A stretch of DNA of 37,186 bases from Bacillota bacterium. Its GTDB lineage: Bacteria; Bacillota; Dethiobacteria; Dethiobacterales; Dethiobacteraceae. A model generated the notes under the pieces. That model searched no databases, was not told the DNA's origin, and saw only the letters and a list, made by a program, of their open reading frames with translations. Numbering within the stretch: the stretch's first letter is position 1; every line of letters begins with the position of its first letter. This document shows positions 35,907-37,186 of this stretch, one piece after another. Where the stretch lies: positions 1 to 37,186 of the forward strand of contig JAAYKP010000023.1 of NCBI GenBank assembly GCA_012522335.1, in the 5' to 3' direction. The position numbers and the translations under genes are program-made.

Positions 35907-36641
35907 ATGCATTTAAATATTTACTTAGAATCGGTGGACGAACTAAATCTACCGCTTCATTATAACCATCTGGTTCAGTCTGCTATTTATAATTCTATCG
36001 ATGCCGAACTGGCAGATTTTTTACATAACGAAGGGTATAAGCATGAAAAACGCACATTTAAAATGTTTAGCTTTTCTCGCATAAATGGTCGCTTCAAACG
36101 TGATCCGAATAAGGAACGTATTATATTCGACGAGAAAAAAGTTTGTATAGTTATCTCATCACCGATTGAACGGTTTTGTGAATCGTTGATGCATACGCTG
36201 CTGACACGAGGCAAAATAAGACTAGGTGAAAATGAATTGGAAGTAACAAAAATATTAGTAGAGAATTATGAGGTTAAAAATGACCAGATAAAAATTCAGA
36301 CCTTATCACCCGTAGTACTTTATAGTACTCTCTTGCGGCCGGACGGTCGTAAGTATACGTGTTATTACCAACCACTTGAGCCTGATTACAACAGACTTTT
36401 AACTGAAAACTTGCAGAAAAAGTATACAGCCTTTTGGGGCAGTGAGCCGCCGGCTGCAGAACTCGATGCGCAAACTATCGGTACACAAAGGATGCATCTG
36501 GTAAAGTACAAAGGGACAATTATCAAGGGTTATTTCGGAAAACTATTGTTGTCTGGGCCACAACCCTTGTTACAAATTGCTGTTAACGCCGGCCTGGGCA
36601 GCAAGAACAGCCAGGGGTTCGGGTGTATAAAAGTAATCTAA
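35907..36641 (+). CDS. cas6: CRISPR pre-crRNA endoribonuclease Cas6
   Basis: Cas6 cuts the CRISPR transcript within each repeat to release crRNAs. The 244-residue protein has the C-terminal Gly-rich loop GLGSKNSQGFGCIKV of Cas6 and two ferredoxin-like halves. By alignment from memory with archaeal Cas6, Tyr28 (SAIYNS), His40 (DFLHNE) and Lys52 (TFKMFSFS) occupy the catalytic-triad places. The frame is open to a TTG at 35850, but ATG at 35907 after AGGGGTGA (35895-35902) gives the usual start MHLNIYLES. The array begins 242 bases after the stop. No cas1, cas2, cas3, cas10 or Cascade gene is in the window. Base composition is more A/T-rich than the housekeeping genes. Confidence 0.93.
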   Translation: MHLNIYLESVDELNLPLHYNHLVQSAIYNSIDAELADFLHNEGYKHEKRTFKMFSFSRINGRFKRDPNKERIIFDEKKVCIVISSPIERFCESLMHTLLTRGKIRLGENELEVTKILVENYEVKNDQIKIQTLSPVVLYSTLLRPDGRKYTCYYQPLEPDYNRLLTENLQKKYTAFWGSEPPAAELDAQTIGTQRMHLVKYKGTIIKGYFGKLLLSGPQPLLQIAVNAGLGSKNSQGFGCIKVI

Positions 36642-36654
36642 AGTTTGGAGCGTA

Positions 36655-36706
36655 TTTTATACAATATAAAACAGGTATTTATAAAGTTGTGTAGAAATAA
36701 CTTTTA
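36655..36706. repeat. Two short A/T-rich inverted repeats after cas6
   Basis: TTTTATA-CAA-TATAAAA (36655-36671) is a perfect 7-bp palindrome. ATAAAGTT (from about 36680) pairs with AACTTTTAT with one bulge. Neither is followed by a T run, so neither is a clear terminator. Confidence 0.55.
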
Positions 36707-36716
36707 TAACTTAAAA

Positions 36717-36764
36717 TTGTCGTCGACCTGCGATAGTGCAAAAACCCCTGGAGATCGACGACAA
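36717..36764. repeat. 10-bp perfect inverted repeat with 28-base loop between cas6 and array
   Basis: TTGTCGTCGA (36717-36726) and TCGACGACAA (36755-36764) are exact reverse complements. The 28-base loop contains the run GTGCAAAAACCCC and can add a CC/GG pair. The element stands out by its GC content from the A/T-rich surroundings. There is no T run, so it is not a terminator. It may be a structured RNA or a protein site linked to the CRISPR locus. Confidence 0.75.
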
Positions 36765-36792
36765 CATCATATTTTGCTTAATGCCTGTAATT

Positions 36793-36883
36793 AAAGGCTT
36801 TGCAGTGCTTTTTACTTTTTCGCTGTAACCATTTGCTTGAATCAGCGAAAATGAAAAAGCCTTTATTTTCAACGTTTTAACGG
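36793..36883 (+). promoter_or_regulatory. CRISPR leader with leader-proximal hairpin
   Basis: This A/T-rich stretch directly precedes the first repeat, as a leader should. It contains a long imperfect inverted repeat: 36808-36825 pairs with 36843-36859 with one mismatch and one bulged base around a 17-base loop. AAAGGCT (36793-36799) and AGCCTTT (36858-36864) can form an outer or alternative arm. The repeat orientation puts the transcript on the + strand. I cannot pick a promoter within it with confidence. Confidence 0.6.
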
Positions 36884-37186
36884 GTTCTTAGCCTACCTAT
36901 AAGGAATTGAAACCTTTCCAGCTGGGCTACAAGGGATACATTCAACTTTGGTTCTTAGCCTACCTATAAGGAATTGAAACAAGGATTTACAAAGACAATC
37001 AGGCGTGGCAATCGTGCGTTCTTAGCCTACCTATAAGGAATTGAAACCCGTCGGGGGGTGCCTGCTGCTCCAAAAAGTTGCGGTGTTCTTAGCCTACCTA
37101 TAAGGAATTGAAACCTGGCTTTGACGATTGGGGCCGTATGGAAGCTGTACCGTTCTTAGCCTACCTATAAGGAATTGAAACTTAAA
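36884..37186 (+). CRISPR. CRISPR array, five repeats visible, continues past the window
   Basis: Five identical 30-base repeats start at 36884, 36951, 37018, 37085 and 37152. Each begins GTTCTTAGCC and ends GGAATTGAAAC. The four complete spacers (36914-36950, 36981-37017, 37048-37084, 37115-37151) are each exactly 37 bases. A fifth starts at 37182 and is cut by the window end. The ATTGAAAC end is the 8-base handle left on crRNAs by Cas6 in type I-B and type III systems, so the array reads on the + strand with its leader upstream. No repeat is degenerate, as expected at the leader end. The repeat has only weak internal pairing (TTCTTA with TAAGGAA). Type I-B or III is inferred. Confidence 0.98.

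Follow-up and report, generated by a model that had tools for sequence, protein, structure and literature searches.

The CRISPR spacer closest to the leader in this contig (spacer 1) is a fragment of recT, since its peptide and its DNA both match that gene in the right frame and above chance. We consider it very probable (about 93%) that this spacer is a 37-bp piece of recT from a phage or prophage of the FQLGYKGYIQLC sub-clade, stored in the sense orientation and serving DNA interference by a type I-B system. The analysed window comprises 37,186 nucleotides and is the entire contig C113, so the array is interrupted by the contig end.

Layout of the array and its leader

The array contains five perfect 30-nt repeats with a period of 67 nt, spanning positions 36884-37181 of the window. 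The features are as follows.

35907..36641, + strand: cas6, crRNA-processing endoribonuclease (TIGR01877, 133.8 bits; Pfam Cas6 domains)
36642..36883, + strand: leader region, 242 nt, inner part conserved in a two-leader alignment with the second leader on contig C146
36884..36913, + strand: CRISPR repeat 1, 30 nt, GTTCTTAGCCTACCTATAAGGAATTGAAAC
36914..36950, + strand: CRISPR spacer 1, 37 nt, leader-proximal, CTTTCCAGCTGGGCTACAAGGGATACATTCAACTTTG; frame +3 reads FQLGYKGYIQL, a fragment of the recT coding strand
36951..36980, + strand: CRISPR repeat 2, same sequence as repeat 1
36981..37017, + strand: CRISPR spacer 2, 37 nt; target search negative
37018..37047, + strand: CRISPR repeat 3, same sequence as repeat 1
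37048..37084, + strand: CRISPR spacer 3, 37 nt; target search negative
37085..37114, + strand: CRISPR repeat 4, same sequence as repeat 1
37115..37151, + strand: CRISPR spacer 4, 37 nt; target search negative
37152..37181, + strand: CRISPR repeat 5, same sequence as repeat 1; the contig ends 5 nt further, within the array

The preliminary description had placed spacer 1 at 36914-36950, next to the leader, and both points are correct: the 37 nt lie exactly between two perfect repeats, a leader conserved with that of C146 lies upstream, and a degenerate repeat closes the opposite end. Spacer 1 would then be the most recent acquisition of the array. Elsewhere in the same genome the repeat occurs only on contigs C66 and C146. 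Contig C66 starts with the same repeats and appears to continue the C113 array, the join being inferred from these repeats. The leader also contains a hairpin, GTCGTCGA...TCGACGAC, at about 36717-36766, with a fold z of -4.5 as single-stranded DNA; it is nearly unchanged in the second leader on C146 and is possibly a candidate protein-binding or regulatory site.

Match of spacer 1 to phage recT

The third forward frame of spacer 1 is open and translates, as described earlier, to FQLGYKGYIQL. Because five of the six frames of the spacer are open, an open frame is weak evidence by itself. We therefore searched IMG/VR viral contigs with a degenerate back-translation pattern of this 11-mer, and DNA encoding it was found in at least 120 stretches. 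By our own estimate about 3e-4 matches were expected by chance (2.7e-15 per site over ~1.2e11 sites, the collection size being assumed). In the sites examined among the matches listed, the 11-mer was in frame within RecT-like open reading frames (ORFs), and homologues in annotated phages are named RecT-like or recombination protein. The identical 11-mer is present in the solved RecT structure 7ub2. These data bear out the proposed resemblance to a conserved segment of the phage RecT single-strand annealing protein (PF03837), a segment also found in clostridial phage RecTs; unlike that protein's gene, the window holds only 37 nt, a record of the gene rather than the gene.

Nucleotide comparison gave the same assignment. 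The best DNA matches to spacer 1 agreed at 32 of 37 bases and were found in a viral contig of IMG/VR (L134) and in a Peptococcaceae metagenome-assembled genome, or MAG (L142). In each, all five differences fall on third codon positions: four are in silent codons, and the fifth, CT to CA, is also silent, lying at the end of the Thr codon just before the 11-mer. Over ~1.2e11 sites (assumed), chance alone would give about 7e-4 matches with five or fewer mismatches. The best-matching genes score 139.5 and 150.6 bits against Pfam RecT, and a YqaJ recombinase/exonuclease gene adjoins each of them. It is therefore scarcely credible that the RecT likeness arose by chance, whether from non-coding DNA or from an unrelated gene read in a different frame: although the exact source is absent from the collections searched and several other frames are open, the excess of matches over expectation is set against this, as are the third-position differences and the two controls scanned, the reversed peptide and the -3 frame of spacer 1, which each gave 0 matches.

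The end of the spacer narrows down its source. With TG as its final two bases, spacer 1 must continue with Cys or Trp behind QL; among 111 distinct sites compared, this residue was Ala in 99 and Cys in 12. The continuation LA.R.G expected in the preliminary description is thus not what spacer 1 encodes; the TG ending fits the minority 'QLCMR' type and groups the spacer with the QLC relatives, unlike the commoner 'QLA' sub-clade. With the -TG ending imposed, a scan whose pattern also fixed the preceding codon returned 10 viral contigs, and a further scan returned four contigs from MAGs of Clostridia-type bacteria (L142 to L145). These results point to a source recT in the FQLGYKGYIQLC sub-clade, which is present in clostridial phages and genomes, and they support an origin in a recT-carrying phage or prophage.

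Whether the donor was a free phage is less certain. The recT could have belonged to a prophage, plasmid or other integrated element, as the bacterial contigs L142 to L145 contain close relatives and Enterococcus megaplasmids a weaker match. We regard this as possible but the less likely source, because L134, one of the two best DNA matches, is a viral contig and because no recT was found in the bacterium's own genome; prophage and phage are, moreover, not truly exclusive categories. The lack of recT in its own genome also means that spacer 1 is not self-targeting at recT.

The preliminary description had suggested looking for a recT protospacer with a consistent protospacer-adjacent motif (PAM). 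Relatives of the protospacer in recT were found, as above, but an exact protospacer was absent from the collections searched. The exact 32-nt core did not occur in IMG/VR, which was scanned completely with a restricted wobble pattern covering that core, nor was there an exact protospacer among GTDB species contigs. Neither the bacterium's own genome nor a set of 98 genomes from its class contained a protospacer with three or fewer mismatches. With blastn, GenBank phages yielded nothing beyond 17-nt chance matches to unrelated genes, and plasmids nothing beyond weak, unannotated 26/30 matches on two Enterococcus megaplasmids. Spacers 2-6 had no matches in phages, and in the retrieved loci their matches were limited to 13-15 nt; the RecT motif was not found in other spacers of related genomes. 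One genome of the same family has a 74-repeat array with a near-identical repeat (G010:C18:38-4896, L156); none of its spacers matched GenBank phages, so no PAM could be derived from that array.

The relatives, rather than an exact protospacer, show what the PAM slot would look like. In 12 QLC relatives, the three bases before the spacer site (-3 to -1) were CGA in 4, CCA in 4, CTA in 2 and CGG in 2. In 10 of these 12, the first base of the spacer site falls within the codon for Thr in a Pro-Thr pair, and hence the preceding three bases in those 10 are CNA. For the type I-B system of Clostridioides difficile, the PAM is YCN for interference and CCN for adaptation, with CCA accepted (PMC8406132). 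The putative CNA slot is compatible with CCA but does not prove it.

The type I-B system and the sense of the crRNA

The cas genes identify the system as type I-B. Cas6 (TIGR01877, 134 bits) is encoded directly upstream of the leader on C113. On C66, two repeats and a degenerate last repeat are followed by a csx14-like gene, csx15, cas8b (two ORFs), cas7, cas5, cas3, cas4 and cas1b, and by a last short ORF that is putatively cas2 by its appearance. Cas7/Csh2 (TIGR02590, 249 bits), Cas5b (TIGR02592, 110 bits), Cas3 (TIGR01587, 132 bits), Cas4 (TIGR00372, 103 bits) and Cas1b (TIGR03641, 476 bits) all scored above the cut-offs. The Cas8b ORF (L140:1757-3253) scored 93 bits against TIGR02556 and 41 bits against Csh1, both under the curated cut-offs. 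Cas8b occupies two adjacent ORFs of 498 and 134 aa (L140:1757-3660); the shorter one aligns with the C-terminal part of Pfam Cas_TM1802 (43 bits, cut-off 25) and is perhaps a stand-alone small subunit or the product of a split gene.

This set (Cas6, Cas8b, Cas7/Csh2, Cas5b, Cas3, Cas4 and Cas1b) resembles the type I-B systems of Clostridia such as C. difficile, with which it also shares a 30-nt repeat ending in ATTGAAAC, spacers of 36-37 nt and spacers derived from phages. It differs from these systems in that the C-terminal part of Cas8b is the separate 134-aa ORF, and in that Csx14 and Csx15 head the operon. Within L140:402-1726, the Csx14/Cas_NE0113-like protein carries a weak LuxR-type helix-turn-helix (HTH); together with Csx15, it is possibly an operon regulator.

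Csx14 and Csx15 families are met mostly near type III systems. Their position at the head of the C66 operon could suggest that the array also serves an RNA-recognising type III complex, in which case spacers of this sense could not act on the transcript. This is very improbable and largely refuted, as no Cas10 of the Csm1 or Cmr2 type matched in the bacterium's own genome, which is 99% complete, and the operon contains Cas8b, Cas7/Csh2, Cas5 and Cas3.

The orientation of spacer 1 was considered as a further indication of CRISPR type and rejected, since for a single spacer the two senses are equally likely (50% each). The earlier assignment to type I-B and DNA targeting thus stands on the cas genes of C66 and the absence of Cas10, while the argument drawn from the sense of the spacer is only consistent with it. 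The orientation itself is clear: with the leader upstream of spacer 1 and the degenerate repeat at the other end, the crRNA reads in the same sense as recT mRNA. As the preliminary description stated, it could not pair with the mRNA, and it can pair only with the template strand of the DNA.

In the most probable course of events, a 37-bp recT piece would have been captured from a phage or prophage and inserted so that the crRNA matches the recT message in sense. The array would be transcribed, and Cas6, encoded just upstream, would cut the transcript within each repeat. A complex of Cas8b, Cas7 and Cas5 carrying the crRNA would pair with the recT template strand in phage DNA beside a 5' PAM, and the bound complex would recruit Cas3, leading to destruction of the phage DNA as in standard type I-B interference.

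A second leader and the meaning of the recT spacer

Contig C146 (G000:C146:1-253; L141, - strand) carries a leader and one variant repeat followed by phage coding sequence. No second repeat occurs at +37. In the 223 nt after the repeat, a C-terminal fragment of a Siphovirus Gp157 homologue is encoded, and another ORF begins behind it. The Gp157 Pfam match reaches 28.5 bits, just under the cut-off of 28.6; all 51 residues of the fragment align with a phage homologue. A tblastn search found no gp157 relatives in IMG/VR, and the bacterium's own genome has no further copy of the phage fragment. The junction is possibly an assembly chimera, in which the assembler crossed from a spacer into a phage with an identical protospacer, or it may be real. 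If it is a chimera, the first spacer of the second array would likewise be a sense spacer, derived from gp157.

The leader-proximal spacers of both arrays (recT; gp157 with the start of the next ORF at C146) might then be taken to draw on the coding strand of phage recombination genes, with the I-B system preferring recombination modules, for example through DNA ends processed during infection. We think such a preference very improbable. Spacer 1 is ordinary CRISPR immunity, a routine record of phage infection. It ties this bacterium to a recT-carrying phage family whose exact member is absent from the collections searched, and it offers a PAM test for the I-B system if that phage is found. 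Targeting a conserved gene segment may also restrict mutational escape.
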